64,000 nt of DNA from an uncultured Desulfovibrio sp. GTDB lineage: Bacteria; Desulfobacterota; Desulfovibrionia; Desulfovibrionales; Desulfovibrionaceae. The stretch lies in assembly GCA_900541395.1 (NCBI GenBank), contig UQJT01000001.1, positions 99,546 through 163,545 of the forward strand, read 5' to 3'. A model generated the notes under the pieces. That model saw only the letters and a program-made list of their open reading frames with translations. It was not told the origin of the DNA and did no database searches. The position numbers were made by a program, and so were the translations under genes. This document shows, in pieces, positions 16,493 through 61,810 of this stretch (positions are counted from its first letter, which is position 1; every line of letters begins with the position of its first letter).

Positions 16493-16645
16493 TTAGAGCG
16501 GATTCGCTTTGACTTTTTACAAAGTCAAAGCTGAAAGACACGCTCGCTTCGGCATGTAACAGCGCAAATAAATTGCGCTTATGCCTTCGCGGCGGCCGCC
16601 TGCTCACGTAGTCGGCAGAGCATTTTCAACGGGAAAATGCTCTAA
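16493..16645. repeat. TAGAGC-type dispersed repeat, complete copy, subfamily 1
   Basis: A 153 bp element with ends TTAGAGC and GCTCTAA in inverted orientation. It holds three perfect hairpins: GCTTTGACTTT / AAAGTCAAAGC, AGCGCAA / TTGCGCT, and AGAGCATTTTC / GAAAATGCTCT at the right end. The middle and right parts align with the copy at 30071-30195 (ACGCTCGCT-CGGC, AAAT-AATTGCGC, GCGGCGG, then the AGAGCATTT hairpin). It starts 12 bp after the SLOG-like gene stop. Confidence 0.8.
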
Positions 16646-16804
16646 AAACGGCGGTCCGCGAAACGCTGATTTTTTCGGTCGGCAAGGTGCAAGGCACACA
16701 TCGGGCGAAGCTGTATCGGACATACCGCAAGGTCGATGTCGGCCTTGCAACGCCGCGGGACGGAAAAAGGCGGCTTTGCAGCAGGCGGGGCAATGAGGCT
16801 GAAC

Positions 16805-16835
16805 CTAGAGCATTTTCACTTTAAACGCTCCGCGG
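16805..16835. repeat. Half copy of the TAGAGC-type repeat
   Basis: CTAGAGCATTTTCACTT followed by TAAACGCTCCGCGGAG. The preceding TGAAC and the following GCGGAG also occur around the left end of the element at 39761 (TGAACCTAGAGCATTT and CTCTGCGGAG), so the similarity extends beyond the terminal repeat. No matching right end was found. Confidence 0.6.
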
Positions 16836-16886
16836 AGCCGAGCCGTAGCGAGCCTTCGAGGCGACGCCGAAACAGCCGCCTTTCGA

Positions 16887-16913
16887 AACCCGGCCGACGA
16901 TGTCGGCCGGGTT
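16887..16913. terminator. Hairpin with 12-bp stem, possible terminator
   Basis: AACCCGGCCGAC, loop GAT, GTCGGCCGGGTT. The stem is perfect but no T run follows on either strand, so termination is only possible. Confidence 0.4.
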
Positions 16914-16960
16914 GATTCTCCGGCATGCCGATTCCGGCCCGGCCGTCATCGACATGACCG

Positions 16961-16998
16961 CAAAACCGCGAGCCCCATCGCGGTTTTGTCCGTTTTAT
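16961..16998 (+). terminator. Rho-independent terminator before rarD
   Basis: CAAAACCGCGA, loop GCCCCA, TCGCGGTTTTG, followed by TCCGTTTTATTT. It lies 60 bp upstream of rarD and would insulate it from the SLOG-like gene. Confidence 0.75.
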
Positions 16999-17047
16999 TT
17001 CCGTCGCGCGGGCGGTCCGTCCGCGCGACGCTTTCTCACGAGGTCCC

Positions 17048-18025
17048 ATGCCCTCCGCTTCTGCCACCCTCCCCGCGTCGACCCGCGCGGATTCCTTCCG
17101 GGGCGTTTTGGCCGGATGTTCGGCCCACGCGCTTTGGGGGGTCGCCGTCCTGTACTGGCGTCTGCTGGCCGAACTGCCCGCGGTATCCATCCTGGCCCAC
17201 CGCATGGCCTGGTCCTGTCTGTTCGTGCTGGCCGTGCTGATCGCCACCGGGCGCACGGGCGAGGTCAGGTCGGCCGCGGCCGACCGCCGTTCCCTGTTCA
17301 CCCTGGCCTGTTGCGCCTGTATCCTCAGCGTCAACTGGGGCACCTTTCTGTGGGCCGTCAACCGGGGCAACGTGGTGGAAACCAGCCTGGGCTATTTCAT
17401 CACCCCCCTGCTCAACGTGCTCATGGGCCGCGTGCTGCTGGGCGAACGCCTGTCCCGGCCCCAGGCCGCGGCCATCCTGCTGGCCCTGGCGGGAGTTTTG
17501 TGGGGCGTTGTGGCCTACGGCCATGTGCCGTGGATAGCCTTTGTCCTGGCCCTGACCTTCGCCGTGTACGGATACCTGCAAAAAACCGTGCGCGTGGAGG
17601 CCGCCCCCGGCCTGTTTGTGGAAACGGCCGTGCTTCTGCCCTTTGCCCTGTTGTGGCTGATCTTCGCCCATCCCGGCGAAATGGGCGGCCTGGCCGGACA
17701 CGGAACGGCCCGTCCCCTGCTGCTTATGGGCACCTGTCTGTTCACCGCCCTGCCCCTTTTGCTGTTCAGCTACGCCGCCCGCCACGTCACCCTGGCCACG
17801 GTGGGCATCGTCCAGTATCTGAGCCCCAGCATCAATTTTCTGCTGGCCGTGACCGTCATGGGCGAAGCGATCAAGCCCGGCGACATGGTCACCTTTCCGC
17901 TCATCTGGAGCGCCCTGGCCCTCTATACTTGGGATGCCCTGCGTTCCATGCGCCGCCTGAAGGCCGAAAACGCCGCGCGCTTTGCCGCCCGGGCCGAGGC
18001 GGTCGACGAATCGCCCCTTTCCTGA
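17048..18025 (+). CDS. rarD: EamA family permease, RarD type
   Basis: A 325-residue inner-membrane protein with ten predicted helices. RarD signatures are GVLAGCSAHALWG near the start, SVNWGTFLWAVN near residue 97, and a PSINFLLAVTVMGE segment near residue 260. RarD was named for chloramphenicol sensitivity in E. coli; its physiological substrate is not settled. It is the second DMT-type permease in the window and differs clearly from the one at 11508-12449. ispG starts 31 bp downstream. Confidence 0.88.
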   Translation: MPSASATLPASTRADSFRGVLAGCSAHALWGVAVLYWRLLAELPAVSILAHRMAWSCLFVLAVLIATGRTGEVRSAAADRRSLFTLACCACILSVNWGTFLWAVNRGNVVETSLGYFITPLLNVLMGRVLLGERLSRPQAAAILLALAGVLWGVVAYGHVPWIAFVLALTFAVYGYLQKTVRVEAAPGLFVETAVLLPFALLWLIFAHPGEMGGLAGHGTARPLLLMGTCLFTALPLLLFSYAARHVTLATVGIVQYLSPSINFLLAVTVMGEAIKPGDMVTFPLIWSALALYTWDALRSMRRLKAENAARFAARAEAVDESPLS

Positions 18026-18056
18026 CCTTCTCCCGATTCCATACGGAGCTGCCGCC

Positions 18057-19205
18057 ATGTCCCCTGCCGAAACGCCTTCCCACTCCTGCCCGTCGGCGTC
18101 CCCTTCTCCGGCCGCCGCGCCCCACCGAGCGCGCACGCGCGTTTTGCATCTGGGCCCCGTGACCATAGGCGGCGGCCATCCGGTGGCGGTCCAGAGCATG
18201 ACCAACACCGATACCCGCGACCCCGAGGCCACGCTGGCCCAGATCGAGCGTCTGGCTCGGGCCGGATGCGAGATCGTCCGGGTGGCCGTGCCCGACGAGG
18301 CGGCGGCCCGCGCCCTGAAACCTCTGGTGGCCCGCTCGCCCCTGCCCCTGGTGGCCGACATCCACTTCGATCACCGTCTGGCCTTGGCCGCGCTGGAAGC
18401 GGGCGTGCCCGGCCTGCGCATCAACCCCGGCAACATCCGGGTTACCGGCGAGGGAGGCGAAGCCCGGTTGGACGCCGTGGTGGACGCGGCCAAGGCCCGT
18501 CACGCCGTCATCCGGATAGGAGTCAACAGCGGTTCGGTGGAAAAAGATCTGCTGGACCGCTTCGGCGGTCCCACGCCCGAGGCCCTGGTCGAAAGCGCGC
18601 TGCGCCACGTGCGCCTGCTGGAAAAACGCGGTTTCGCCGACATCAAGGTATCGCTCAAATCCTCGTCCGTGCCCGGCACGGTGGAAGCCTGCCGCCTGAT
18701 GGCCGCCCGCGCGGACTATCCCCTGCACATCGGCGTCACCGAGGCGGGCACCCTGACGCGCGGCACGGTCAAATCGGCCGTAGGTCTCGGGGTTTTGCTT
18801 TTTGAAGGCATAGGCGATACACTTCGCGTTTCGCTGACCGCCGATCCCGTACGCGAAGTGGCCGTGGCCTGGGAAATACTGCGCGCCGCCGGACTGCGCC
18901 GCCGGGGGCCGGAAATCGTGTCCTGCCCCACCTGCGGCCGTACCGAAATCGACCTCATCGGCCTGGCCGAAAGGGTGGAAGCCCATCTGCAAGACTGTAC
19001 GGCCGACCTCAAAATCGCGGTCATGGGTTGCGTGGTCAACGGCCCCGGCGAGGCGCGCGAAGCCGATCTGGGCCTGGCCGGAGGCCGCGACAAAGGCGTC
19101 ATCTTCCGCAAGGGCGAGGTCGTGCGCACCGTGCGCGGGCAGGACGCCCTGCTGACCGCCTTTCTGGACGAACTGGACACGCTGCTGCAACATCATCAAC
19201 ACTAG
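18057..19205 (+). CDS. ispG: 4-hydroxy-3-methylbut-2-en-1-yl diphosphate synthase
   Basis: Penultimate MEP-pathway enzyme, a 4Fe-4S protein reducing MEcPP to HMBPP. The start at 18057 (MSPAETPSHS) has GGAG 9 bases upstream; an in-frame start further upstream lies within rarD and is rejected. The 382-residue protein has VAVQSMTNTDTRD near the N-terminus, NPGNIRV in the TIM barrel, and the cluster ligands in SCPTCGRTE plus CVVNGPGEA. The first 25 residues are Ser/Pro/Ala-rich and not conserved. proS follows after 9 bp. Confidence 0.96.
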   Translation: MSPAETPSHSCPSASPSPAAAPHRARTRVLHLGPVTIGGGHPVAVQSMTNTDTRDPEATLAQIERLARAGCEIVRVAVPDEAAARALKPLVARSPLPLVADIHFDHRLALAALEAGVPGLRINPGNIRVTGEGGEARLDAVVDAAKARHAVIRIGVNSGSVEKDLLDRFGGPTPEALVESALRHVRLLEKRGFADIKVSLKSSSVPGTVEACRLMAARADYPLHIGVTEAGTLTRGTVKSAVGLGVLLFEGIGDTLRVSLTADPVREVAVAWEILRAAGLRRRGPEIVSCPTCGRTEIDLIGLAERVEAHLQDCTADLKIAVMGCVVNGPGEAREADLGLAGGRDKGVIFRKGEVVRTVRGQDALLTAFLDELDTLLQHHQH

Positions 19206-19214
19206 AGGACCCTC

Positions 19215-20954: not shown

Positions 20955-21067
20955 CCCGTTCCGGCTGCCGGGCCGCCCGCGGCGGCCCGGCAGCCGACGT
21001 TTTTCACCGCCGGATCGCCCGGCATGGATTCCCCACCCGTTCCATCCCCGCCTCGGACCATACGCCC

Positions 21068-22111: not shown

Positions 22112-22117
22112 ACCGAC

Positions 22118-23590: not shown

Positions 23591-23623
23591 AACCCATCCG
23601 GCGCGCCGCGCCAAGGAGTCGCC

Positions 23624-25810: not shown

Positions 25811-25939
25811 AATTTTGCCGGAAAAAGCAAACGCCCAACCGCGGCACGCTGTTCCGGCCCCGGTTTCACGCGTCTCCGGAGCAGGGATTGCCCTTACCCC
25901 GCTGCCCTTCCCAAAACAACATTTCACCCCCTCAAGCCC

Positions 25940-28862: not shown

Positions 28863-30059
28863 TTATACTTTGGTCGCCTCGTCGGCGGGCAGTTCAAATG
28901 CCTCGCCCGCTTCCTTTTTGACGTCGAGGGCAATCTTCCACAGCAGAGACACGATAAGCGCGCCCAAAGCGAAGATGCCGAGGCCGATGGACACTTCCCA
29001 GAAGGAGGGAGTGTACACCTCGTAAGTTTCGTAAGGAGTAGGCATGAAGCCGCCGATGAGCAGCCCCAAGCTCTTGTCGATCCAGGAGGCGATAAAGAGC
29101 ATGAGCAGAGCCCAGGGCAGGATTTTGTCGTTCTTGCGGAAGCGCGGGGTCAGCAACAACGCCATGGACAGAAAAGCAAAAACCACGGCCGTCCACATCC
29201 AACCCGTCACCCACACGTTCAGCCCCTCGTGCCCGGTGAACAGGAAGATAAGGGGATGTTGATGGCCGGGAATGCCGCTGTAGAAGGCGGTGAACACTTC
29301 CAGGCAGTAGAAGAAGATGTTGATGCCCATAGCGTAGGTAATGATCAGCGACAGCGGACGTACCACGGCCTTGCCGGGATCGAAACCGGTCAGGCGCTTG
29401 AGCATGAACAAAAGCAGAAGCAGCAGGGCCGGTCCGGAACAGAAGGCCGAGGCCAGGAAGCGGGCGGCCATGATGGCGGTGAGCCAATAGTGGCGACCGG
29501 GCAACCCGGCGTACAGGAAACCGGTGACGGTATGAATGGAAAACGCCCAAAAGATGGACACGTATACCAGGTACTTAATCCACTTGGGCGGCTGCACGTC
29601 GTAGCGTTCGGCTTCCAGAGTGGTCCAGCCGATGACGGCGTTGAGGATCAAATAGCCCAAAAGCACGGTGGCATCCCAGAACATGACCGAATTGGGCGTG
29701 GGGTGCAGAAACATGTTCATCACACGCTGCGGCTGCCCCATGTCCACCACGATGAACAACATGCACATGACCACCGCGCCGATGGCGAGGAATTCGCCGA
29801 AGATGATCACGCGCTTGAAAGGCTTGTAGTGGTGGAAATAGGCGGGCAATACCAGCATGACGGCGCCGGCGGCCACCCCCACCAGATATGTGAACTGAGC
29901 GATGTAAAATCCCCACGACACGTTGCGGGACAGACCGGTCAGCTTCAGACCGTAGATCAACTGAAAGACATAGACGACAAACGCGTAGCCGATGACGGCC
30001 AACAAAAAGCAGAGCCACGCGTAGTACTTGGGCGACCCTTTGAGCACTCGTTCGAGCAT
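28863..30059 (-). CDS. dsrP: Sulfite reduction-associated complex membrane protein DsrP (NrfD family)
   Basis: A 398-residue integral membrane subunit with ten predicted helices, homologous to NrfD/PsrC quinol-interacting proteins. Family marks are NVSWGFYIAQFTYLVGVAAGA near residue 46, MGQPQRVMNMFLHPTPNSVMFWD near residue 105, and FTGHEGLNVWVTGW near residue 265. It exchanges electrons between the quinone pool and DsrO/DsrJ in the periplasm. GGAG lies at the correct spacing, directly next to the inserted repeat that separates it from dsrO. Last gene of the operon. Confidence 0.96.
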   Translation of the reverse strand: MLERVLKGSPKYYAWLCFLLAVIGYAFVVYVFQLIYGLKLTGLSRNVSWGFYIAQFTYLVGVAAGAVMLVLPAYFHHYKPFKRVIIFGEFLAIGAVVMCMLFIVVDMGQPQRVMNMFLHPTPNSVMFWDATVLLGYLILNAVIGWTTLEAERYDVQPPKWIKYLVYVSIFWAFSIHTVTGFLYAGLPGRHYWLTAIMAARFLASAFCSGPALLLLLLFMLKRLTGFDPGKAVVRPLSLIITYAMGINIFFYCLEVFTAFYSGIPGHQHPLIFLFTGHEGLNVWVTGWMWTAVVFAFLSMALLLTPRFRKNDKILPWALLMLFIASWIDKSLGLLIGGFMPTPYETYEVYTPSFWEVSIGLGIFALGALIVSLLWKIALDVKKEAGEAFELPADEATKV

Positions 30060-30070: not shown

Positions 30071-30195
30071 CTAGAGCATTTGATGGTGAGACGCTCGCTC
30101 CGGCGCTTGACGGCGTAAATGAATTGCGCCTGCGCCTGCGCGGCGGGCGGCCGCATAAGCGGCCGCCAGAGCATTTCCAGTCTGAAATGCTCTAG
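30071..30195. repeat. TAGAGC-type repeat inserted between dsrO and dsrP, subfamily 1
   Basis: A 125 bp element with perfect 11-bp inverted ends CTAGAGCATTT / AAATGCTCTAG. The right end forms a second hairpin, AGAGCATTTC / GAAATGCTCT. An internal GGCGGCCGC / GCGGCCGCC hairpin is present. The element overlaps the last three bases of dsrO: the dsrO TAG stop (30192-30194) is read from the element terminus. The left end abuts the dsrP ribosome-binding site. It aligns with the copy at 16493-16645. Confidence 0.9.
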
Positions 30196-30980
30196 ATGAT
30201 GTAGTAAACGCCAGGATCGGTGCCCAGGTCGGGCTTGCGGCGTATGCTGAAGTTTTCGGCCAGCGCCTTGCGCACCGTCGATTCCGGGTCCATAAGGTCT
30301 CCGAACAGGATGGCCCCGTCCGACGCTTCGACGCAGGCGGGCAACAGACCTTTTTCCAGGCGTTCGGCGCAGAAGGTACACTTTTCCACCACCCCGCGCA
30401 TGCGGGTGGGATACTCGGGATTAAGGCCGGTCAAGAAGGGACGCGGGTCCTGGAAGTTGAAGCTGCGCGACCCGTAGGGACAGGCGGCCATGCAGAAGCG
30501 GCAGCCTATGCAGCGGTGATAGTCCTGGGCCACCAACCCCTGGGGCGTGGTGTAGGTGGCCTTGACCGGGCATACCCGCACGCAGGGGGGATTGGTGCAC
30601 TGGTTGCACAGCAGGAAGTAGCGACGCTCTTCCACGTCCTTGGGCAACACCGGATTGGGGTCGGAGGCGAAGGCGTGGTGGAAGGTGTCGTCCCAGATCC
30701 ACTTGACTTCCTGGGGGCCGGGAATGGTGGGCACGTTGTGGGCGGCGTTGCAGGCTTCGATAATAGGCCGCATGGACTCGGGCGAGGTGAAACGGCGGGT
30801 GTCGATGACCATGGCCCAGCGCTTGGCGTGCAGGGCGTCCTTGGCGGTGGTGTACGCGCCCTCGCCCGCCGGGGCCGGAGTCAGCACGGCCTGGGCGGCG
30901 ACCGAGGCGCCCGAGGCGGCCGCCAGGGCGAAGGTGGACAGCCCCGCGACTTTCAGAAAGTAACGTCTACTCGAATTCAT
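30192..30980 (-). CDS. dsrO: Periplasmic Fe-S protein DsrO
   Basis: A 262-residue four-cluster ferredoxin-like subunit of the DsrMKJOP complex. The twin-arginine signal SRRYFLK is at residues 4-10, with a hydrophobic stretch to about residue 32, so it is exported folded. Cys groups CNQCTNPPCVRVC, CIGCRFCMAACPYG and KCTFCAERL bind 4Fe-4S clusters as in HybA/DmsB-like proteins. It overlaps dsrJ by 14 bp. Its stop codon is supplied by the repeat element. It passes electrons between DsrP and the haem protein DsrJ. Confidence 0.96.
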   Translation of the reverse strand: MNSSRRYFLKVAGLSTFALAAASGASVAAQAVLTPAPAGEGAYTTAKDALHAKRWAMVIDTRRFTSPESMRPIIEACNAAHNVPTIPGPQEVKWIWDDTFHHAFASDPNPVLPKDVEERRYFLLCNQCTNPPCVRVCPVKATYTTPQGLVAQDYHRCIGCRFCMAACPYGSRSFNFQDPRPFLTGLNPEYPTRMRGVVEKCTFCAERLEKGLLPACVEASDGAILFGDLMDPESTVRKALAENFSIRRKPDLGTDPGVYYII

Positions 30981-39760: not shown

Positions 39761-39895
39761 TAGAGCATTTCGCGTATGAAATGCTCTGCGGAGTCGGGCA
39801 GGGCGAGACTTCGCCGCTCCGATGAAGGCGTGAAACCTGCGAACAGGAACGCGGGATCCGGCCGGCAGATATTTTCAAATGTAAAACGCTCTAAG
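39761..39895. repeat. TAGAGC-type repeat, complete copy, subfamily 2
   Basis: A 135 bp element starting TAGAGCATTTCGCG and ending GTAAAACGCTCTAAG, with ends in inverted orientation. The left terminus folds as AGAGCATTTC / GAAATGCTCT. Read in reverse it matches the element at 61590: AGAGCGTTTT, TTGAAAATATC, GCAGGTTTCACGCC and CATCGGAGC occur in the same order. The kdpE stop TAG (39891-39893, minus) lies in its terminus. Confidence 0.85.
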
Positions 39896-40673
39896 ATTTA
39901 CCTGAGTGTGGAACTGCCTGCTGGTTTTGGTTTGATGCATTGTCGCCTTCCACGCGAACCATGCGATATCCTATGCCCATATGTGTTTTTATATAATTGC
40001 ACTGAGGGGATATATGTTCAATCTTTTTTCGGAGTGTAGCCATAAATACGCGTAAGGAAGGAAGATTCTGTTCCAGGGAGTTTCCCCATACTGTCTGGAG
40101 AATAAATCTGTAGGTAAGCACCTTGCCTACATTGTGGGCAAGAAGGCATAAAAGTTTATACTCCATGGGGGCAAGATGAATTTCTTTTCCTGACACTGTT
40201 ACGGTACCTGCGGTATAGTCCAGAAAAAGCTCACCGTTTTCAAAGGAATTTTCATCGTGTGAATCTCTGTCCCGATCATAATGCACGCGGCGCAGCGCGG
40301 CCCGCAGTCTGGCCAGCAGTTCTTCCACACTGAACGGTTTGGTCAGATAGTCGTCAGCTCCCGCATCCAGCGCGGCTACCTTGTCGTCTCCTTCACTGCG
40401 GGCGCTGACGACAATAATGAACATCATGCTCCATTGTCTGACTGCTTTGATGACCTCCACTCCGTCCATATCGGGCAGGCCCAGGTCAAGCAGCATGACG
40501 GAGGGATTGCTGCGTGCGGCTTCGGCCAGAGCGGCTCGTCCTGTGGAAACGAGTACAGGCTCCACTTCCTGACGTTCCAGCGTCGTTGAAATAAGCGCGC
40601 GGATGGCCTTGTCGTCCTCCACTACAAGTACGCGTTCCCGAAAAAGGGGCGTACCTCCGAGATCGGAACTCAT
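39891..40673 (-). CDS. kdpE: KDP operon response regulator KdpE
   Basis: A 260-residue OmpR/PhoB-family regulator. The receiver domain has VLVVEDDKAI (acidic pocket), MLLDLGLPD (phosphoacceptor Asp) and LTKPFSVEEL (Lys). The C-terminal winged helix includes HLAPMEYKLLCLLAHNVGKVLTYR and VFMATLRKKIE. The start at 40673 overlaps the kdpD stop (ATGA). The final codons run into the terminal repeat of the adjacent element, so the last residues may not be ancestral. It activates the kdpFABC promoter at low potassium in known systems. Confidence 0.95.
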   Translation of the reverse strand: MSSDLGGTPLFRERVLVVEDDKAIRALISTTLERQEVEPVLVSTGRAALAEAARSNPSVMLLDLGLPDMDGVEVIKAVRQWSMMFIIVVSARSEGDDKVAALDAGADDYLTKPFSVEELLARLRAALRRVHYDRDRDSHDENSFENGELFLDYTAGTVTVSGKEIHLAPMEYKLLCLLAHNVGKVLTYRFILQTVWGNSLEQNLPSLRVFMATLRKKIEHISPQCNYIKTHMGIGYRMVRVEGDNASNQNQQAVPHSGKS

Positions 40674-43399
40674 GGTTGCTCCTGCATGGAATTGCACAGC
40701 GAAAGCTCTTCGGCTTCACGTTGCAGATTGAAGAAAAACACTGTCCCTACAGGCATGTTGTCACGAACGCCGATTTCACCGCCCATAGCCTGGATGATGC
40801 TTCTGCACAGCGCCAGCCCTATGCCCATGCCGCGTCTGCCGTCTCCCTTTCCCGTAGAGGTCGTGTAAAACATTTCAAAAATATGTTCCTTGTCAGCCTT
40901 GGGGATGCCGGAACCTTCATCGGCAACCTCGACAACGACTTCCTTTCCTCTGGGAATGGCTCTGATAGTGATGGAAGAATCCTCCGGGGAATGTCGGATG
41001 GCATTATCCAGCAGATTGACAAGAACCTGCACGGTCAGCCGGGCATCCATACGCGCAAGGAGAAGCGGTGCGGCAAATTCCGTTTTCAGCCTGCGCCGTC
41101 CTGCACGCGGACGTATGATGTTTACAGCCTCCTGCACCACATCTTCCACGAGTTCGGCTTCCATACGGAGTGTAAAACCATACTGTTCAAGGCGGGTCAG
41201 CGCCAGAATATTTTCTACCATGTCGACGAGATAACGGGCTTCGTCCTCAATGGCGTCGGCCAGTTCATGCCTGCGAGCGGGCGGCAGCATGTCCGCGTTG
41301 CTGGAAAGCATGGCGGCGTTGCCGTAAATGGAGGTCAACGGTGTGCGCAGATCATGGGAAATGGTGCGCAGGACATCGGCATGCAGTTTTTCCTGCTGGA
41401 CTCTGGCTCGTATTTTCGCATTGGCATGTATCAGTCTTTCCTTTTCGATGGCAAGAGCGCATTCGCCGCTCAGTGCAAGCACCAGATTTTTTTCCGCCGC
41501 ATCGAATACGCGGGAAGCTCCGTCATCATCCGGCCTGGCGAAGCCGAAGACGGCAAAGACTTCCCTGTGGCCGGCTATGGGGATATAATGGCAAAATGCG
41601 CCGGGCAGAGTATCCGTTCCCGCTCCGGCAGGCCGATTGTTTTTCATAACCCACTGGGCCACGCTCTTTTCGTTGCTCCTGGTAAGCAAGGTGGAAGCAG
41701 CCGCATCCTGTCCATCCGCTCTGAGATGGATCTGAGGCCGTCCAAGCGCGCCGTCGTGCACCGGGTAGCATACAACGTGACACCCCAGCAGCGCACGAAA
41801 CTGGCGGCATGCTTCTGTCAGCATGGCTTCTTCATTTTCAGCCTGCTGCAGACGCCTGCTGTTGGTCAGCATGAGTTCGGTATATGTGGCTCTGCGTATG
41901 CTCTGCTGAGCCTGGGCCTGGGTACGGCTGGTAAGCGCGCTGGCTGAAAGGGCAACCAGGAACATGAGTGTGAAGGTAATGAAGTAACTGAGATCATAGA
42001 CGGAAAGGCTGAAAAGAGGGGGGACGAACAGACAGTCGAAAAGCAGAACGCTCATGGCGGAGGCTGCCGCACCATACCAGGGGCCTGCGGTAAAGGCGGC
42101 AATGCCCAGCACGCCGAACATGTACAGTCCGGTAATACCGATGTCATGCACGCCGCAAAGGCGCAGCAGCCATCCGCCCGCGCTGCACAGGCATAGAATC
42201 AGTCCGGTTATTCCCCACTGCTTCCAGGATGAAGGCGGTGTGCCCAGCAGAGATCCGAGATTCCGGAAATGCCGCTTCCGTCGCGAGGGGTGGGAGGAAA
42301 TCGGCTGTGAATCAGGAATAATGTAGATGTCTATTTCCGGCGCGAGTTCCGCCAGGCGCTCCACCAGCGTCGGCACTTGTCTGAACAGATGCTTGCCGGC
42401 AGGAGATCTGCCCAGGACAATCTTGCTGACCCCGCTGAGTTTGGCGTATTCTGCTATTCTCGCGGGGATATTGCTTCCCCGTGTTTCGACCACTACGGCG
42501 CCCAGCTCTTCAGCGAGCTTTACGTTGGCCAGCAGAGCCGGATCTTTGGAGCGTTTCTCTCCCTCGTTGTTCTGAACATACAGAGCCGTAAAGTCGGCAT
42601 GGAAAGCGTCCGTCATTCTCGCAGCCGTGCGGATGACCCGTGCATTGCTGGGGGCTCCGGAAAGACAGATGAGAATATGTTCCTTGACCTGTCTCCGCCC
42701 GCTTCCGGATGGGGATTCCGCCTGGGCGGCACGATTGACCCGATCCGCCATGCGGCGCAGGGCTATTTCACGCAGACCGGTAAGGTTGGCAGGAAGAAAG
42801 AAGTGTTCCAGCGCCCGCTGGGCCTGTTTTTCCCTGTAAATTTTTCCGGCTTTCAGCCTGAGTATGAGTTCTTTCGGTTCAATGTCGACAAGCTCCACCT
42901 GGTCGGCCTGATCAAAAACGTTGTCCGGCAGGCGCTCGCGTACGACAACTCCGGTGATGGATGCTACCAGATCGTTGAGACTTTCAAGATGCTGAACATT
43001 GACGGTCGTCCAGACGGAAATACCCGCCCGCAGAATCTCTTCAACATCCTGATAGCGCTTGGTGTTGCGGCTGCCGTGCGCGTTGGTGTGGGCCAGTTCG
43101 TCCACCAGAAGAACTTCCGGCTTGCGCGCCAGCGCCGCATCCACATCAAGTTCATTAAGGGCGACATTTCTGTAGGAAATACGGAGAAGCGGGAGCTGTT
43201 CAAGACCATCAAGCAGTGCGGATGTTTCCGGGCGGGGATGGGGTTCGACATAACCGACGACGATGTCTATTCCCTGCGCCTTGGCCGCATGCGCGGCCTT
43301 GAGCATGGCGGTGGTCTTGCCCACTCCGGCGGCATAGCCGAAGAAGATTTTCAGCATTCCTTTCCGGGGGGAAGAGGCGAGTGAGGCATCCTGAACCAT
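40670..43399 (-). CDS. kdpD: Sensor histidine kinase KdpD
   Basis: A 909-residue potassium/turgor sensor. The KdpD N-terminal domain has Walker A GYAAGVGKTTAML near residue 21 and LLVDELAHTN near residue 95. A universal stress-type domain (about 250-370), four membrane helices (about 400-500), a GAF-like domain and the kinase core follow. The phosphorylated His is in ISHDLRTPLTSIYGN, with N and G boxes LVNLLDNAIRHSPE and GRRGMGIGLALCRSI. No strong Shine-Dalgarno is seen. A 216 bp spacer separates it from kdpC. Confidence 0.95.
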   Translation of the reverse strand: MVQDASLASSPRKGMLKIFFGYAAGVGKTTAMLKAAHAAKAQGIDIVVGYVEPHPRPETSALLDGLEQLPLLRISYRNVALNELDVDAALARKPEVLLVDELAHTNAHGSRNTKRYQDVEEILRAGISVWTTVNVQHLESLNDLVASITGVVVRERLPDNVFDQADQVELVDIEPKELILRLKAGKIYREKQAQRALEHFFLPANLTGLREIALRRMADRVNRAAQAESPSGSGRRQVKEHILICLSGAPSNARVIRTAARMTDAFHADFTALYVQNNEGEKRSKDPALLANVKLAEELGAVVVETRGSNIPARIAEYAKLSGVSKIVLGRSPAGKHLFRQVPTLVERLAELAPEIDIYIIPDSQPISSHPSRRKRHFRNLGSLLGTPPSSWKQWGITGLILCLCSAGGWLLRLCGVHDIGITGLYMFGVLGIAAFTAGPWYGAAASAMSVLLFDCLFVPPLFSLSVYDLSYFITFTLMFLVALSASALTSRTQAQAQQSIRRATYTELMLTNSRRLQQAENEEAMLTEACRQFRALLGCHVVCYPVHDGALGRPQIHLRADGQDAAASTLLTRSNEKSVAQWVMKNNRPAGAGTDTLPGAFCHYIPIAGHREVFAVFGFARPDDDGASRVFDAAEKNLVLALSGECALAIEKERLIHANAKIRARVQQEKLHADVLRTISHDLRTPLTSIYGNAAMLSSNADMLPPARRHELADAIEDEARYLVDMVENILALTRLEQYGFTLRMEAELVEDVVQEAVNIIRPRAGRRRLKTEFAAPLLLARMDARLTVQVLVNLLDNAIRHSPEDSSITIRAIPRGKEVVVEVADEGSGIPKADKEHIFEMFYTTSTGKGDGRRGMGIGLALCRSIIQAMGGEIGVRDNMPVGTVFFFNLQREAEELSLCNSMQEQP

Positions 43400-43615
43400 G
43401 GCAATGCGTTCCGACTGCTTGAAAATTCGGGTTGGCGGAAATACTTTCCAGCCGGTATTTTCTCCGGCGCACGGCGACGCCTTGCGGATGCTTCCCGCAC
43501 GGCATCAGAGCGCCATGCGGAAAGCATCCACGGGGCGTGTGAAAATGTCCGTCAGAACCGCTCGGGAATGAGGAGAGCGGAGACAGGCATGAGGACACAT
43601 TCAGATGAAAGCGCG

Positions 43616-44290
43616 TCAGCGGGAGGCCTGAAGCAGACCCAGTTCACCTGCAATGTCCAGATTCACCATAAGAACATTAACGGTTTCTCCTCCGAAAATT
43701 CCAAGGAATTTACCCCGAGTGTGCCTTTTTACAATAGATTCCAGACGCTCTTTTGACAATCCTGTGGCCTCGGCCATGGCCGGAATTTGAACCGCTGCGG
43801 CAGCGGGGCTGATATACGGTTCAAGTCCGGAACCGGACGCCGTGAGCAGATCTGTCGGAATGTCCTCCTTGCTTACGGAAGGATTGTTCCGCAGAAATTC
43901 CTCCAGATCCTTTTCAACGCGCTCGGCCAGAGCGGGATTGGTCGGCCCGAAGTTCTGTGAACCGGAAGCCACGCCGGCATAGCTGCCGCTGTCCTTGTCT
44001 GCCTGAGTATAGGTGTTGTAGTTGTAGGCGGAGGGACGGCACTTCATGAATCGTGCGTCCGTAAACGCCTGTCCGACCAGTTTGGAGCCTACCGCGTGTC
44101 CGTTCACTTCAATAAGGCTGCCGTTGGCCTTTTCCGGAAAGATGGCCTGGCTGAGCCCCGTCATCAGAACCGGATAGGCCAGGCCGCAGATAATCAGCAG
44201 TACCAGCGTCAGCAGTACAGGCTTCTTTATTTCGTTCACCATGACACTCATTCCTGTTGTTTCCGCGTTCAGGCGGGTTGGATTATTCAT
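43616..44290 (-). CDS. kdpC: Potassium-transporting ATPase KdpC subunit
   Basis: A 224-residue single-span accessory subunit of the KdpFABC pump. The membrane helix VLLTLVLLIICGLAYPVLMTG lies near residue 22. The conserved periplasmic part has NGSLIEVNG, GQAFTDARFMKCRPSA, SGSQNFGPTNP, DLLTASGSGLEPYISP and AAAVQIPAMAEATGLS. The start at 44290 (MNNPTR) has AAGGGGGAG 5 bases upstream; an internal ATG at 44242 is an alternative. It follows kdpB by about 103 bp. Confidence 0.94.
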   Translation of the reverse strand: MNNPTRLNAETTGMSVMVNEIKKPVLLTLVLLIICGLAYPVLMTGLSQAIFPEKANGSLIEVNGHAVGSKLVGQAFTDARFMKCRPSAYNYNTYTQADKDSGSYAGVASGSQNFGPTNPALAERVEKDLEEFLRNNPSVSKEDIPTDLLTASGSGLEPYISPAAAAVQIPAMAEATGLSKERLESIVKRHTRGKFLGIFGGETVNVLMVNLDIAGELGLLQASR

Positions 44291-44393
44291 CGTACTCCCC
44301 CTTGCGGGAAGGGGGAGGCGTCTCCTGCGGCCATCGCATGGAGCCGTCCCAGAGATGCCGCGGCCGTGCATGGCACACGACCGCGGATTCCCG

Positions 44394-46448
44394 TTACATT
44401 CCCATGGCCGCCAGCATGGGGGCGATAATCAGATCAATCAGCTTGATGCCGACAAAGGGAGCAATGACGCCGCCCAGTCCGTAAATCAGCATGTTTCGGG
44501 CCAGCATCTTTTCCGCGCGCATGGGTTTGTAGGTTACGCCGCGCATGGCGAGGGGAATCAGGCATGGAATGATGACAGCGTTGAAGATCAGCGCGGAAAG
44601 GATGGCGCTGAGCGGCGTGGCCAGTCCCATGACGTTCAGAACCTGCAACTGGGGAATCACTACCATGAACATGGCGGGAATGATGGCAAAATACTTGGCG
44701 ATGTCGTTGGCGATACTGAAGGTCGTCAGCGATCCGCGCGTAATCAGGAGCTGCTTGCCGATTTCCACCACATCCAGCATCTTGGTGGGATCGGAGTCGA
44801 GATCGACCATGTTGGCGGCTTCCTTGGCGGCCTGGGTCCCGCTGTTCATGGCTATGCCCACGTTGGCCTGCGCAAGGGCGGGAGCATCGTTGGTGCCGTC
44901 GCCGGTCATGGCCACGATCTTGCCGTTGGCCTGTTCTGCCTTGATGGCCCTGATTTTGTCTTCCGGCTTGCACTGTGCGATAAAGCTGTCCACGCCGGCT
45001 TCCTGCGCGATGGTCGCGGCAGTCAGCGGGTTGTCGCCTGTGCACATGATGGTCTTGATGCCGATGGCGCGCAGCCGCGCAAAACGCTCCACCAGACCTG
45101 CCTTTATGGTATCCTTGAGGTAGATGACGCCGAGAATGCGGTTATCCACGCTGACGACCAGCGGCGTTCCGCCCTTTTCCGCGACCTGGTTGACGTGGTG
45201 TTCAAGGTCTTCCGGAAGGCTGCCGCCCTTTTCCTTCACATAATTCTGGATGGCGTCGGAAGCGCCCTTGCGGATCTGCGTTCCGTCAGGCAGGTTCACA
45301 CCGCTCATGCGCGTCTGCGCTGTAAAGGGGATGAACTCCATGCCCTGAACTTTTTCCACAGACGTTCCGTTCAGCTTTTCTCCAAGTTCGATGACAGATT
45401 TGCCTTCGGGGGTATCATCCTCCACGGAACTCATCATCGCGTATCTGACAAGTTCACCGGCGTCCACGCCGCGCACGGGAATGAACTCCGCGGCCATCCG
45501 GTTGCCATATGTGATGGTTCCGGTCTTGTCCAGAATCATGGTGTCCACGTCGCCGCAGACTTCAACAGCCTTGCCGGAAAGGGCGATGACATTGAATCTC
45601 GCCACGCGATCCATGCCGGCAATGCCGATGGCGGAGAGAAGACCGCCGATGGTGGTCGGAATCAGACATACCGTGAGGGCAATCAGCGTGGAGATCGGCA
45701 GATGCACGCCGCTGTATACGGCCATGGGATACAGGGTGACAACGACGATCAGGAAGATGATGGTAAGGCTGACCAGCAGCGTGTTCAGCGCGATTTCGTT
45801 AGGTGTTTTCTTGCGGGAAGCGCCTTCGACGAGGGCGATCATCTTGTCCAGAAAGGATTCGCCGGGGTTGGAGGTGATGCGGATTTTAAGCCAGTCGCTG
45901 GCCACGGTAGTACCGCCGGTGACGGACGAGAAGTCTCCTCCGCTTTCCTTCAGCACCGGAGCGGATTCGCCGGTGATGGCGGATTCATCCACGGAAGCCA
46001 CGCCGTCAATGACTTCGCCGTCATTGGGGATGAGTTCCCCCGCCCGGACCAGGACGATATCGCCTTTCTTCAGCGCGTTGGCGTTGATGATGTTTTCCGA
46101 GCCGTCCGCACGCAGGATGCGCGCCTGCATGTCCTTCTGCGTTTTTTTCAGGCTTTCGGCCTGGGCCTTGCCCCGACCTTCGGCCACGGCTTCGGCAAAG
46201 TTGGCAAACAGCAGCGTGATCAGCAGTATGGCGGATACGATCGCGTTGTAGGCCGTCAGATTATTGCCGTCTCCTCCGAAGAGATTCGGGAAGAAGCACA
46301 GCAGCAGGGTCACCACAAAACCAACTTCCACCACGAACATGACCGGATTTTTAATCATGTATACGGGGTTCAGCTTCGTGATCGAGCCGATCAGGGATGA
46401 TTTCAGAATATCCGCGGTAATAAATGCGGTTTTCGTTTTTTTGCTCAT
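44394..46448 (-). CDS. kdpB: Potassium-transporting ATPase KdpB (P-type ATPase)
   Basis: A 684-residue catalytic subunit. The phosphorylation motif is [10 protein letters not shown] near residue 307. Actuator-domain TGES is within [11 protein letters not shown], and the hinge motif [15 protein letters not shown] lies near residue 515. Seven membrane helices are predicted. The start at 46448 (MSKKTKTAF) has AGGAG at good spacing after kdpA; a start 7 codons upstream is rejected. Energises potassium uptake through KdpA. Confidence 0.97.
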
Positions 46449-46459
46449 GTCCGTAACTC

Positions 46460-48184
46460 CTAGCCCCACAAAATCATGTGTTCCGTAAGCGGTCCGAGAA
46501 CCAGCGCGGGGAAAAACGTCAGCGCGGCAATGATGACAACGACCATGAACAGGGACACGGTAAAGGTGCGGGTATCGGTTCTCAGTGTGCCGATGGATTC
46601 GCTGACCGGCTGCTTCAGCATGATCGAGCTGGAAATGGCCAGCGCAATGACGATGGAAAGATAGCGGCCGAAGAACATGGCCAGACCGGCAGTTACGTTC
46701 CAGAACAGGGAGTTGTCCGCCAGGCCTTCAAAACCTGAGCCGTTGTTGGCTGCGGAAGAAGCATATTCATACAGCACCTGGGTCAGGCCATGCGGTCCCG
46801 GATTGGTAATGCCCGCCAGCCCGTCCGGCACGGCCACGGCCAGGGCGGAAAAGCCCAGAATCAGCAGAGGATGGATGATGATGCACAGGGCTGCCAGCTT
46901 CATTTCCCTGCCTTCAATCTTTTTGGCCAGATATTCGGGTGTGCGCCCCACCATCAGTCCGCAGACGAACACGGTCAGTATTACATAGATGAGCATGTTG
47001 ACCAGTCCCACGCCTTCGCCGCCGAACACGAAATTGAGCATCATGTTGATCAGCGGGACCATGCCGCCAATGGGCGTCAGTGTGTCATGCATGTTGTTGA
47101 CCGTACCGGTGGTAAAAGAGGTGGTTACGGTCGTGAACGTGGCGGACTGGGCAATGCCGAAGCGTACTTCCTTGCCTTCCATACTGCCCATGTCCTGATT
47201 CAGCCCCACCTGTTCCAGTCTGGGATTCCCCGCGAGTTCCGAAGTATAGCAGGCGGTCAGTCCGATGAGGAAGATGGCGAACATGACGGCGAAGACGGGT
47301 TTGGCTTCACTGCCCAGCAGGATACCTTCCTTCCTGCCTTCTTTTTCCGCCTTCTGCCTGCGGCGATCGCGCACCATCAAGCCGAACATGACGACGAAAG
47401 AGCCGGGCAGAAGCATCATGGACAGCATCTCAAGCATGCTGGTGAACACGTTGGGGTTTTCCAGAGGGGTAGTCGAGTTGGCCCCGAGGAAACCGCCGCC
47501 GTTGGTTCCCAGATGCTTGATGCTCACCAGCGAGGCGATGGGCCCCATGGCGATGTCCTGATATTTTCCTTCGATGGTCTGGACGGTGGCATTAGCCGAG
47601 AAGTTCTGTGGGCACCCTTGCGACACGAGTACCAGCCCCACCACGATGGCAAGCGGCAAAAGCACGCGGGTCGTATTCCTGACAAGATCACGGTAGAAAT
47701 TGCCCATGTTTCTGCAGGTGCCTGAAAGGCCGCGGACAAAGGCCATGACCACAGCGCCGCCGGTGGCCGCGGAGGTAAACATCATGTAGATGATGACCAG
47801 CATCTGACTCAGATAGGAAAGGCCGGATTCGCCTGAATAATGCTGCAGGTTGGTGTTTGTCATGAAACTGATGATGGTATTGAATGACAAACTGGCTTCC
47901 ATTGAGTCGATGCCGTTGGGATTGAACCATGGAATAAATTGGATACGCAGGATCAGATAGCCGATAAAGACCATCGCCGCATTGGTGGCGACAAGCGCCA
48001 CTGCATATCTTTTCCAGCTCATTCCCTCGTCATCAATGCCGCATATCCGGTAAATGACGTTGTCCAGCCGATCAAATACCGGATCGGCAAAGGTGTGCTG
48101 TTCCGTGGCAATGTGGTAAAGATATTTTCCCGTCGGGAAAATCACGACAATAAAGACAGCCAAAAATAACAGAATCTCCAGCAT
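46460..48184 (-). CDS. kdpA: Potassium-transporting ATPase KdpA (potassium channel-like subunit)
   Basis: A 574-residue membrane subunit with ten helices and four selectivity-filter-like loops: [37 protein letters not shown] and [11 protein letters not shown]. The conserved NNGSGFEGL and LGTNGGGF segments are intact, so the pore looks functional. It starts 21 bp after kdpF. Confidence 0.97.
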
Positions 48185-48205
48185 TTTTTATCCCTTGTAT
48201 TGCCG

Positions 48206-48283
48206 TTAAAACTTTTCCGGGTTTGCAAGCGCGTATACCAGATACAGGCATAGCGCGGCGATCAGGATTCCAAGTGCAAGCAT
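48206..48283 (-). CDS. kdpF: Potassium-transporting ATPase KdpF small subunit
   Basis: A 25-residue single-helix peptide, MLALGILIAALCLYLVYALA followed by NPEKF. The YLVYAL-x-NPEKF end is the KdpF hallmark. It lies directly before kdpA. In known complexes KdpF stabilises KdpABC. Confidence 0.92.
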   Translation of the reverse strand: MLALGILIAALCLYLVYALANPEKF

Positions 48284-48295
48284 GGAAATACTCCT

Positions 48296-48388
48296 CTATT
48301 TTTCCTCAACCTGGGATTCACACCAGCAGGCAAGCGCGATGACCAGCAGAAAACAGATTATCAGCGTGCCAACCATGAAAAAATCCAT
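48296..48388 (-). CDS. Small single-span membrane peptide upstream of kdpF
   Basis: A 30-residue frame beginning MDFFMVGTLIICFLLVIALA and ending CWCESQVEEK, preceded by AAAGGAG at ideal spacing. One transmembrane helix, then a polar tail with a Cys-Trp-Cys-Glu group. It ends 12 bp before kdpF and is probably its operon leader. It is not a duplicate of KdpF. I have a general memory of similar tiny frames before kdpF in other bacteria but cannot verify it here. A role in Kdp assembly or regulation is inference. Confidence 0.65.
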   Translation of the reverse strand: MDFFMVGTLIICFLLVIALACWCESQVEEK

Positions 48389-48953
48389 ACAAAACTCCTT
48401 TGCATGTTTCCGGTATCCAGTGCCGGATGTCATTTGCCCGGATGGGGACAGAGGGGGAGAGCATCCCCTCTGACAGGCAAATACAGAAGTGGATGGTATG
48501 AAGGCAGGCATAAAAACGGGATTAAAAAATGAGGTTTTATATTAAATTTTTATTAAAATCATGTTTGAATTCTAATGGTTGTCAGTCCTGTACCCGCGGC
48601 GGAGAAGGACTGCGGGCATGATGCGGCGAGACTGCACAGCATGGATCCGGCAGTCTGCAAGGGGGGGAGAAAACAGGGAGGAGAGGCGACCGGAGTGTTT
48701 CACAGAAGAGCGGGACGCTGTGCTTCATGAGGTGGATCTGCATCTGCCGCAGGATCGGTACACGGGAATTCCTGCTTCGACGGAGACTTGACGGCAGGGA
48801 GGAAAATATTTTCGGAATTTGTTTTGAAGGCAGCTTTATCGGCCCTAGTTTCGACTTGATCTGACAGTAGTCCCTTGAATAAGGAAAGAGAACTCCGTTT
48901 TGATGGAAGTGCAAACACCCCATCAACCGGGCGTCATGCCCACGGAGTTCCCG
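48389..48953. other. Gap between the kdp leader peptide and transposase remnant
   Basis: About 560 bp. It holds the AT-rich kdp promoter zone and, from 48600 to 48950, sequence without a convincing gene. Confidence 0.45.
48520..48580 (-). promoter_or_regulatory. AT-rich kdp promoter/KdpE-binding region
   Basis: An almost pure A/T tract (TTTTAATAAAAATTTAATAT on the minus strand) lies 130-190 bp upstream of the first kdp peptide. This is the expected position and composition of a KdpE-controlled promoter. Exact -35/-10 boxes are not assigned. Confidence 0.5.
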
Positions 48954-49486
48954 ATGGAAAGTTTTAATCAAAGCGGCATCAAGCACAGGACCGGCCTTCT
49001 CAACCTGGCCGCGGAGCTGGGGAATATCTCCAATGCCTGCCGTATCATGGGCTTTTCCAGAGATACTTTTTACCGCTATCCGGCCGCCCGTGATGCGGGT
49101 GGGGTTGAAGCCCTGTTTGAGGCCAGTCGCAGAAAGCCGAACCTGAAAAATCATGTGGAAGAAGCGACGGAACAGGCTGTTGTCGAGTTCGCCACCGCAT
49201 TTCCCGCATACGGACAAGTCAGAGCCAATAACGAACTACGCAAGCAAGGCACTTCGTCTCTCCTTCTGAAGTCCGCTCCATCTGGTTGCGTCATGGCCTT
49301 GCTTCCATGAAGCAGCGCCTGACGGCTTTGAAAAAATGTCCGCTAAACAATGCCTGGTGATGACCGAAGCACAGGTGCAGTATCTGGAGTGTAAAAAACA
49401 GGATGATGAAGCATCCGGTGAGATAGAGAGCCATCATCCCGGCTATCTCGGCAGTCAGGACACATTTTTTCTTGTAATCTTCTGAT
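48954..49486 (+). pseudogene. IS481-family transposase remnant
   Basis: N-terminal part of an IS481-type transposase: GNISNACRIMGFSRDTFYRY near the start, then EALFEASRRKPNLKNHVEEA and FPAYGQVRANNELRKQG. After 49255 the match moves to another frame (VRSIWLRHGLASMKQRL), then to a third (MSAKQCLVMTEAQVQYLECK, then GYLGSQDTFFLVIF). The DDE domain is truncated just after its start. At least two frameshifts separate the pieces, so it is non-functional. GGAG precedes the ATG at 48954. Confidence 0.8.
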
Positions 49487-50543: not shown

Positions 50544-50555
50544 TCACGTCGGATA

Positions 50556-54204: not shown

Positions 54205-54376
54205 GGGGGCGGGTTATACCGTGTTTCCACCCGCTTGAACAGGGCGGACGCGCGCCCGTTTCCGGCCTGCGCCGCAAGCGGCGAGGCTTTCAATCGCCGA
54301 AGACGCTTAAAAGAACCGTTGAAAACCCGGAGGCGTCCGGGCTACACTGACGCCAGCCCAAGCCAAAGGAGCCTCC

Positions 54377-56344: not shown

Positions 56345-56498
56345 ATTTACTTGATTTTCCCGCTCCGCCCTGCCACACTGATGCGCCTTTCAATCATAAG
56401 TATTATTGGGATGAGGCGCTTTTCACCGCGACTCAACCGAGTGCAGGCGCAAAGCCTTCCCCAAGGCTTTCGCTTTCCCGCTTTTTCCCGGAGTGGTT

Positions 56499-57446: not shown

Positions 57447-57461
57447 ACGGATGCCGCTGCC

Positions 57462-59650: not shown

Positions 59651-59752
59651 GCGAGCCGCCGCATCGCGCCGAAAAACGACTTTTTCCTCCCCGCGTTCCG
59701 ACCGTGCGACGATCCGCCGGACAGACATCCATCAAAAAATTCTTTCTGCTTT

Positions 59753-59780
59753 CGCCCCCGGTTCAAGCGGGGCGGTTTTT
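59753..59780 (+). terminator. Rho-independent terminator of the comF-rlmN run
   Basis: CGCCCC and GGGGCG arms with a 10-base loop, then G and five T residues, 103 bp after the rlmN stop. Confidence 0.8.
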
Positions 59781-59798
59781 GAGCGTGTCTTTACAAAA

Positions 59799-59828
59799 TT
59801 GATAAAAATAAAAAGACGGCATTATGAT
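59799..59828 (+). promoter_or_regulatory. Candidate promoter of the symporter gene
   Basis: TTGATA (59799-59804), 18-base spacer, TATGAT (59823-59828), in an AT-rich context. It would give a leader of about 255 bases. Confidence 0.45.
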
Positions 59829-59967
59829 TGATTACTCAATCAAAAACAGACTTCTTCTGCCTCTCCCGTTGATATATACGCCTGCCCAAAAACAGGCGCG
59901 CATAAGATTTCATGCCGTATAACCGCATCCGGGACCGGCTTGCGACAGTTCCACAACATGCCCTATC

Positions 59968-59982
59968 TATTGTGAAACAATA
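59968..59982. promoter_or_regulatory. Operator-like palindrome
   Basis: TATTGT-GAA-ACAATA, perfect 6-base arms, about 105 bp before the symporter start. Confidence 0.4.
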
Positions 59983-60088
59983 CACAAAATTTTCCCCTTG
60001 ATTTTTTCCTCTATTCTGGCACGTTTACAATATTGTCATTATTTGCCGTATCCGTCAGTATCAGGGAAACAGTGTGGAGGGAGTCTAC

Positions 60089-61513
60089 ATGCTGGAATTT
60101 ATTGACCAAATAGCCTCATCACCAGCCGTTCAGCACATAGCGTCGGTTGTGACCACGATCCTGACCCCCGTCAATAATGTGGTATGGGGACCGGCCATGC
60201 TGGTGCTGCTGCTCGGTACCGGTCTTTTTCTGACATTCGGGCTCCGCTTCATGACCTGGCGGGATATTCCGCGCGGGTTCAAGCTGTTGTGGCGCGGTCG
60301 CGCCAAACTGGATCATCTTGAAGGCGAGTTGTCGCCTTTCAACGCTCTGATGACAGCCCTGGCCGCCACCGTAGGCGTAGGCAACATCGTGGGCGTGGCT
60401 ACGGCCATCCTGATCGGCGGGCCCGGAGCCCTGTTCTGGATGTGGTGTACGGCCATGGTGGGCATGGCCACCAAATTCGCCGAAACCGTGCTGGCTGTTC
60501 ACTATCGCGAAGTCACCCCGGCGGGCAACGTGGTGGGCGGTCCCATGTATTTCATCAAAAACGGCCTGGGCAAAAACTGGTTGTGGCTGGGCACCCTGTT
60601 CGCCGTCTTCGGCGGTCTGGCGGGCTTCGGCATCGGCAACATGACCCAGGCCAACGCCATTTCCGGCGCGCTGGCCAAGTTCGGCGTTTCTCCCTGGCTC
60701 ACGGCCGGCATCCTGTTCGTGCTGATCGGCGTCGTGCTCGTCGGCGGCGTCCAGCGCATCGGCGCCGTATCCGGCAAACTGGTGCCTTTCATGGCCGTCT
60801 TTTATATCATCACGGCTCTGATCATCATTGTGGTCCACATCGACCGCGTGCCTGAAATTTTCATGCTGGTCATCCGCGAGGCCTTTACCCCGTCCGCGGC
60901 ACAGGGCGGTTTTGCCGGGGCCTCGGTATGGCTGGCCATCCGTTACGGCGTGGCGCGCGGCGTGTTCTCCAACGAGGCCGGTCTGGGGAGTGCGGCCATC
61001 GCCCAGGCCACAGCCACCGTGGACAACCCTGTGACCATGGGCCTCATCGGCATGCTCGGCACCTTCATCGACACCATTATCGTATGCAGCATGACCGGCT
61101 TCGCCATTCTGGTCACCGGGGTATGGACCGCCCCCGGCGCGGACGGCGCCACCCTGACTTCGGTGGCCTTCGCCACGGGCCTGCCCGCCTTCCTCCAGGG
61201 CTGGGGCGACGCTCTGGTCACTATCGCCCTGGCTCTCTTCGCCTTTTCCACCATTCTCGGCTGGTGCGTGTACAGCGAACGCTGCTGGGTTTTTCTGCTG
61301 GGCGACAAAGCTCTCAAGCCCTTCCGCCTGATCTTCACCATTGTTGTGCCCATCGGCGCCGTGTCCCACCTCGACACGGTATGGCTGGTGGCCGACACGC
61401 TCAACGCCCTCATGGCCATTCCCAACCTCATCGGTCTGCTTCTGCTCAGTCCCATATTGTTCAAGTTGGTCAAGGAATACAACGCCACGCATAAAGGTGA
61501 AGAGCGTTTGTAA
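60089..61513 (+). CDS. Sodium/alanine symporter, AGCS family
   Basis: A 474-residue inner-membrane amino-acid:cation symporter with about eleven helices. The AGCS signature is FSNEAGLGSAAIAQATA near residue 291, and ATVGVGNIVGVATAILIGGPGA near residue 95 is conserved. The start at 60089 (MLEFIDQIASS) has GGAGG 8 bases upstream; a GTG 5 codons earlier is less well placed. Such carriers take up alanine or glycine. It is a single-gene unit flanked by terminators. Confidence 0.92.
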   Translation: MLEFIDQIASSPAVQHIASVVTTILTPVNNVVWGPAMLVLLLGTGLFLTFGLRFMTWRDIPRGFKLLWRGRAKLDHLEGELSPFNALMTALAATVGVGNIVGVATAILIGGPGALFWMWCTAMVGMATKFAETVLAVHYREVTPAGNVVGGPMYFIKNGLGKNWLWLGTLFAVFGGLAGFGIGNMTQANAISGALAKFGVSPWLTAGILFVLIGVVLVGGVQRIGAVSGKLVPFMAVFYIITALIIIVVHIDRVPEIFMLVIREAFTPSAAQGGFAGASVWLAIRYGVARGVFSNEAGLGSAAIAQATATVDNPVTMGLIGMLGTFIDTIIVCSMTGFAILVTGVWTAPGADGATLTSVAFATGLPAFLQGWGDALVTIALALFAFSTILGWCVYSERCWVFLLGDKALKPFRLIFTIVVPIGAVSHLDTVWLVADTLNALMAIPNLIGLLLLSPILFKLVKEYNATHKGEERL

Positions 61514-61542
61514 GCCGTCTCCGCTCTTCCGCCGACGCTTTC

Positions 61543-61584
61543 CCACATCAAAGCCGCCCGGTTCGACGGGCGGCTTTGATGTGG
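61543..61584 (+). terminator. Long hairpin terminator after the symporter gene
   Basis: An 18-bp perfect stem (inner AAGCCGCCCG / CGGGCGGCTT) with loop GTTCGA, 29 bp after the stop. Only a short T stretch follows inside the arm, so it may act in both directions or as a 3' stabiliser. Confidence 0.75.
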
Positions 61585-61589
61585 CTGCC

Positions 61590-61810
61590 AGAGCGTTTTG
61601 CCCTTGAAAATATCCGCGGGCCGGAACCCTGTTGTGTTCCGGCCCGCAGGTTTCACGCCTCCATCGGAGCTGTACGCCGCCCATAAATTGCGGCGGCTCC
61701 GATGTCGCGGCGCCCTCAGCCGTCAGCGCGAAGCGCGCTACGGATAAGGAGAGCAGAGAGGAACCTCGCTTCGCTCGGCTCCGGGAGCATTTTCAAGCTG
61801 AAATGCTCTA
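61590..61810. repeat. TAGAGC-type repeat, longest copy, subfamily 2
   Basis: A 221 bp element starting AGAGCGTTTTGCCCTTG and ending GAAATGCTCTA. Contained hairpins are GCGGGCCGGAAC / GTTCCGGCCCGC, TCGGAGC ... GCTCCGA enclosing GCCGC / GCGGC, and the terminal GAGCATTTTC / GAAATGCTC. Its left part aligns with 4657-4706 and the reverse complement of 39761-39895. It occupies the gap between the symporter terminator and the convergent ribF gene. Confidence 0.85.

Follow-up and report, generated by a model that had tools for sequence, protein, structure and literature searches.

What are the short palindromic repeats scattered between the genes of an uncultured Desulfovibrio sp., and what moves them? 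The question is raised by a stretch of 64,000 nucleotides of contig UQJT01000001.1 (positions 99,546 to 163,545; hereafter, the window), in which exact matches to the motif AGAGCRTTT number 13, compared with an average of 0.59 in shuffled sequence (the largest count in 100 shuffles was 3). An earlier note made from the sequence alone had proposed a dispersed family of MITE- or REP-like repeats here, and related sequence was found at each of the places it listed. The observation is thus confirmed, and the evidence supports a family of miniature inverted-repeat transposable elements (MITEs) of Desulfovibrionaceae. These are very probably mobilised in trans by a transposase of the IS630/Tc1-mariner type that recognises their TA-GAGCRTTT ends.

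Repeat ends, TA targets and empty sites

The window contains four full copies, plus fragments at 16806 and 4657 (Table 1). The full copies have inverted ends, measure 119–219 bp between the TAs, and each repeat end consists of TA (the target duplication) followed by GAGC. TA was found on both sides of three of the four, and the copy at 61590–61810 has TA at the right only and CA at the left. The earlier description of inverted TAGAGC ends in all full copies needs correction in that the TA belongs to the target duplication and that the left end of the 61590 copy has no T. The proposed division into two subfamilies by interior sequence was borne out by alignments and matches: the copies at 16493 and 30071 (16494 and 30072 in our delimitation) align with each other (subfamily A), and those at 61590, 39761 and 4657 match one another (subfamily B) as well as copies in Candidatus Mailhella excrementigallinarum. 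From their position between genes, and from presence and absence, the window copies are judged to be non-coding.

Empty sites, which the earlier note had suggested looking for, exist in relatives. A DsrO search revealed the Desulfovibrionaceae metagenome-assembled genome HAN036 (locus L001, DsrO 89% identity) as the nearest relative, followed by Mailhella. A total of 28 dsrO-dsrP junctions were inspected out of 80 loci, and 27 of them had no element, only the dsrO stop, a short stretch and the dsrP start; besides the window, the junction was filled in HAN036 alone, and the copy (30072–30194) is common to two species. The empty site reads ATC-TAG-GAGG (Mailhella loci) and the filled site ATC-TAG-AGC...GCTC-TAG-AGGAG, indicating that insertion took place at the TA of the stop codon, with duplication of this TA, and that the first G of the element rebuilt TAG. 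Three places of the window could be compared in HAN036, and two are empty there: the gap (L312) matching 16478–16961 is 120 bp long against 483 and has no hairpin, and the agcS-ribF gap (L307) is shorter and also has no hairpin. With its two filled species and its empty loci, the dsrO-dsrP insertion lends itself as a natural experiment on whether repeats of this kind affect the expression of the sulfite-reduction machinery.

Of the 288 genomes searched in the family, 35 have the hairpin end, TAGAGCRTTT-N-AAAYGCTCT (no reversed-control match in these); it was absent from five of the first eight genomes tried. Among 395 genomes drawn from the phylum, six matched the hairpin pattern, five of which were already in the family set, and one had a reversed-control match. 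Desulfovibrio sp. ZJ369 (G008) has 99 hairpins, and another genome (G037) has up to 280 strand matches. Copies from these two genomes were analysed from the fetched hairpins (n = 82 in G037 and 79 in G008, where the pattern gives 141 + 139 and 51 + 52 strand matches, respectively), of which 1 and 25 were dropped as not aligning as full copies. The full copies are nearly uniform in length (~128 bp in G037 and ~141 bp in G008), and a second TA flanks 76/81 and 48/54 of them. The target is Y-TA-R, with T or C at −1 in 70/81 and 46/54 copies and A or G at +1 in 76/81 and 53/54. Alignment of the copies, as the earlier note had advised, thus established the TA + GAGC ends and the duplication of TA.

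Several other sequences related to the repeats were seen. The hairpin pattern was detected in 40 stretches of viral contigs, and three matches on a single IMG/VR contig (L337) suggest that prophages may carry the repeats. Free-standing 28-bp palindromes were considered as minimal elements and rejected, as several in G049 and G050 share flanks and look like the ends of longer repeats. In ZJ369 (L195, G008:C8:22068), a second TAGAGC-ended palindrome with a different interior, a related repeat, adjoins a family hairpin. The end of AgcS in the window (61501–61513) reads AAGAGCGTTTGTAA and resembles a repeat end; the HAN036 orthologue differs, and the resemblance is perhaps an old remnant or chance.

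IS630-family elements in relatives

The earlier note saw no transposase with such ends in the window, and indeed the IS630 transposase of relatives had no match anywhere in the 64 kb; no match of the IS630 element was detected on plasmids either. An insertion sequence (IS) with matching terminal repeats was found in related genomes, where IS630-family elements (L097 and L098 among them) have MITE-type TA-GAGCATTTT ends. Among the nine PF13358 matches in ZJ369 are an element whose left end is TA-GAGCATTTTCACTTTT and copies whose right end is AAAATGCTC-TA. An intact protein of 310 amino acids (L136) has helix-turn-helix and DDE_3 domains and belongs to the IS630 family of transposases, and the transposase matches the profiles NF033545 (IS630; 196.5 bits) and PF13358. 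Both ends were of the MITE type in 9 of 30 fetched IS loci, and some of the others were cut by contig ends. The IS copy in L097 itself provides a phage-type integrase gene with its stop codon. In this ZJ369 copy (L097:1384–1463) the transposase frame is broken at an A run one base longer than its counterpart in L098, which may reflect programmed frameshifting or decay.

A search of the 288 genomes with the transposase matched 20 at E 1e-20. The hairpin was present in 9 of these 20 genomes vs 26 of the 268 others (p = 1.4e-4, with no correction for kinship), that is, transposase and hairpin occur together in ZJ369 and eight other genomes. Mobilisation in trans, which the earlier note had raised, is supported by the constant ends, the TA duplication, the empty sites, the high copy number in relatives and the IS630 elements with the same terminal repeats. 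From these sequences we infer that an IS630-type transposase moves the MITEs by cut-and-paste at TA. It would recognise TA-GAGCRTTT on the IS and the MITE alike, and the MITE would insert at a Y-TA-R site with duplication of the TA; when the TA belongs to a TAA or TAG stop, TAG would be rebuilt by the G with which the element begins. The Y-TA-R preference and the G ends, together with selection against other sites, would leave copies at stops and one tolerated between dsrO and dsrP, and the copies are explained without any host function. A repeat family of sulfate reducers is hereby described, and a mobiliser for it proposed.

Some observations weigh against mobilisation by this transposase, the main weakness being that 26 of the 35 hairpin genomes have no IS match at E 1e-20. 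No PF13358 match was detected in G001 or in M. excrementigallinarum (G005), and in hairpin genomes lacking the IS another transposase may be at work. Several of them are metagenome assemblies, in which multi-copy ISs are easily lost. Moreover, 11 of the 20 IS-carrying genomes have no hairpin pattern, TA is missing from both sides of 6 of the 25 G005 hairpins, and none of the five hairpins in G050 is located at a stop.

Stop codons and the common fold

As the element has G first at both ends, its insertion into TAA or TAG always leaves TAG in either orientation, and the protein is thus unchanged. This simple sequence rule allows a transposon to insert harmlessly at stop codons; restored stops after insertion are not described in those parts of the open literature that our search covered. 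Genes were called with our own codon-score script, not a standard tool. When called in place, genes ended in the hairpin-end TAG at 8/25 hairpins in G005, 7/13 in G135, 4/9 in G049 and 0/5 in G050, counts in which a restored stop cannot be separated from a truncation. Because the in-place calls mixed in truncated genes, rebuilt empty sites were used instead, and the TA was a called stop for 15/81 copies in G037 and 21/54 in G008, vs 78/751 (10.4%) and 28/249 (11.2%) of non-coding Y-TA-R sites (p = 0.037 and 1.3e-6, respectively). Specific targeting of stop codons was considered and rejected. For Y-TA-R sites no more than 40 bp from a gene 3′ end, 15/33 copies were on the stop vs 68/125 in the null (p = 0.43) in G037, and 21/31 vs 27/54 (p = 0.17) in G008. 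The lack of a significant excess this close to gene ends suggests target preference plus tolerance, and not a stop-codon sensor.

In the window, the earlier note had placed the copies beside stop codons or terminators, which is accurate in part. Two of the four full copies overlap a stop (those of dsrO and the kdpE-like gene) and that at 16494 lies 13 bp past one, and terminator-like sites were detected within two of the four. The site within the 16494 copy is weak (shuffle mean of 0.8 for that stretch), and the one in the 61590 copy, read on the minus strand, is a stem of 14 pairs that lies downstream of ribF in its direction. These sites, and the hairpins near stops, are what could be expected of intrinsic terminators that are repeated because they end genes. 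However, no such site was found in the 30072 and 39761 copies, one copy lies between the co-directional dsrO and dsrP, and places are empty in relatives, so we regard this explanation of the family as very improbable, although single copies may serve as terminators.

In 26 of 36 stop-codon cases the hairpin end is the one turned towards the gene (p = 0.011, uncorrected), and the orientation of copies near but not at a stop is not clearly biased (11 to 7 and 5 to 5). The former speaks for, and the latter against, co-option of the copies as structured mRNA 3′ ends (stabilisers or processing sites) with the RNA fold under selection; structured RNA 3′ ends had also been suggested in the earlier note. 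The fold was profiled in ten subfamily-A sequences from five genomes (the window, HAN036, G037, G027 and G109), five of the ten being from G037. In the common five-helix fold 97.4% of cells are paired, a value favoured by deriving the structure from the same alignment, and pairing drops to 31–46% in slid controls. Changes on both sides were found in 13 of 35 pairs, and the cells with such changes number 32 vs 11.3 in shuffles (0/500 shuffles as high). In contrast, further pair types are not in excess (15 vs 16.7 in shuffles), and the end hairpin is invariant in 9 of its 10 pairs. The four full copies of the window have folding z values of −5.8, −4.6, −2.7 and −7.1.

The covariation and the folding values, like the presence of the dsrO-dsrP copy in two species, are consistent with a role at mRNA 3′ ends. 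Nevertheless, the covarying fold may reflect the upkeep of either an RNA or a DNA palindrome, as DNA palindromes can covary too; half of the alignment is from one genome; two of the three comparable places are empty in HAN036; and no Rfam family matched the copies at gathering score, where only a tRNA was detected in the window. The Rfam family Chlorobi-1, which had the lowest E-value in a lax search of two copies (20.5 bits vs a gathering score of 50), was judged a chance match. Taken together, we consider co-option as mRNA 3′ ends rather unlikely. It is likewise unlikely that this is a stop-suited mini-transposon family, with its Y-TA-R target, G ends and gene-facing hairpin, that supplies the mRNA with a structured 3′ end, new and kept by selection, and leaves the protein untouched, even between dsrO and dsrP.

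The kdp segment and comparison with known systems

The window shares with M. excrementigallinarum a segment of kdp genes (Table 1) that is far more similar than the other stretches common to the two (~66–81% identical). The kdp stretch had matches in 121 of the 288 genomes at E 0.001, with 99% identity only in M. excrementigallinarum and 66–72% in the next best. The outer TA of the 39761 copy is the precise point at which the identity stops, with unrelated flanks beyond it, and the copy itself is orthologous in the two genomes (8 mismatches in 133). The segment looks like a recent horizontal gene exchange with the repeat end as its border, suggesting that copies might also serve as transposon ends that carry neighbouring genes. 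However, the 48834 end has neither a matching terminal inverted repeat (TIR) nor a TA at the junction, and an IS481 remnant is next to it. As this is a single case, and recombination at the repeat would give a breakpoint there too, we find such a carrier role quite unlikely.

Table 1 Repeat copies, neighbouring genes and the kdp segment in the window.
Feature	Position	Strand	Remarks
Full MITE copy, subfamily A	16494–16644	−	151 bp including both TAs; five-helix fold on the minus strand; stop of open reading frame 15926–16480 is 13 bp before
End fragment, hairpin and part of a subfamily-B-like interior	16806–16850	+	Right limit approximate
Full MITE copy, subfamily A, between dsrO and dsrP	30072–30194	−	TA duplication 30072–30073 and 30193–30194
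Full MITE copy, subfamily B	39761–39893	+	9-kb segment common to M. excrementigallinarum ends exactly at the left outer TA
Longest MITE copy, subfamily B, between agcS and ribF	61590–61810	−	Left flank CA, right flank TA
One-end fragment, subfamily B	4657–4706	+	Sequence match to other copies
dsrO	30192–30980	−	NF045797 DsrO, 296 bits; TAG stop made up of TA and the element's first G
dsrP, directly downstream	28863–30059	−	NF045798 DsrP, 455 bits; AGAGGAG ribosome-binding-like stretch after the element
kdp segment (kdpE-like, kdpD, kdpC, kdpB-like ATPase, kdpA)	39761–48834		9,074 bp; 98.9% identical to G005:C3
KdpE-like response regulator	39891–40697	−	206 bits, KdpE cut-off 325; TAG stop formed by the element end
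IS481-family transposase remnant	48936–49310		60.8 bits, cut-off 224; adjoins the 48834 end of the kdp segment

Among known repeats, REP/BIME sequences with their RAYT (Y1 transposase) are not known to have a TIR pair or a target duplication. The present repeats are like them in being short, repeated palindromes that are intergenic and numerous, but they are two-ended elements with a TA target duplication and TIRs common to IS630. The target duplications and the two TIRs thus speak against the REP-like alternative of the earlier note, and on these features, with no search aimed at a RAYT, movement by a RAYT is extremely improbable. Correia elements and ERIC are intergenic, non-coding palindromic repeats flanked by TA, and are set apart by description, as they differ from the present repeats in sequence, host and mobiliser. 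No account of such repeats in Desulfovibrio or Bilophila was found in the open papers searched.

The TA insertion and duplication are shared with IS630 and ISY100, ISs of the Tc1/mariner family. According to PMC2170065, ISY100 inserts into TA, which is duplicated, and the title of Tenzen and Ohtsubo (1991) cited there states that IS630 prefers TA within CTAG. Those elements are autonomous, whereas the copies described here have no transposase and a Y-TA-R target. The closest parallel is RUP of Streptococcus pneumoniae, a non-coding repeat of ~107 bp with ~108–110 copies, for which mobilisation in trans by IS630-Spn1 has been proposed (PMC3049150 and PMC2229807). Like RUP, the present repeats are non-coding, have TA in the target, and have TIRs similar to those of an IS630-family IS (same sources). 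They are set apart from RUP by description, with another sequence and host, a GC-rich covarying interior and stop-restoring G ends. By this analogy, the repeats appear to be of the RUP/IS630-Spn1 kind, and to constitute a new family of it.

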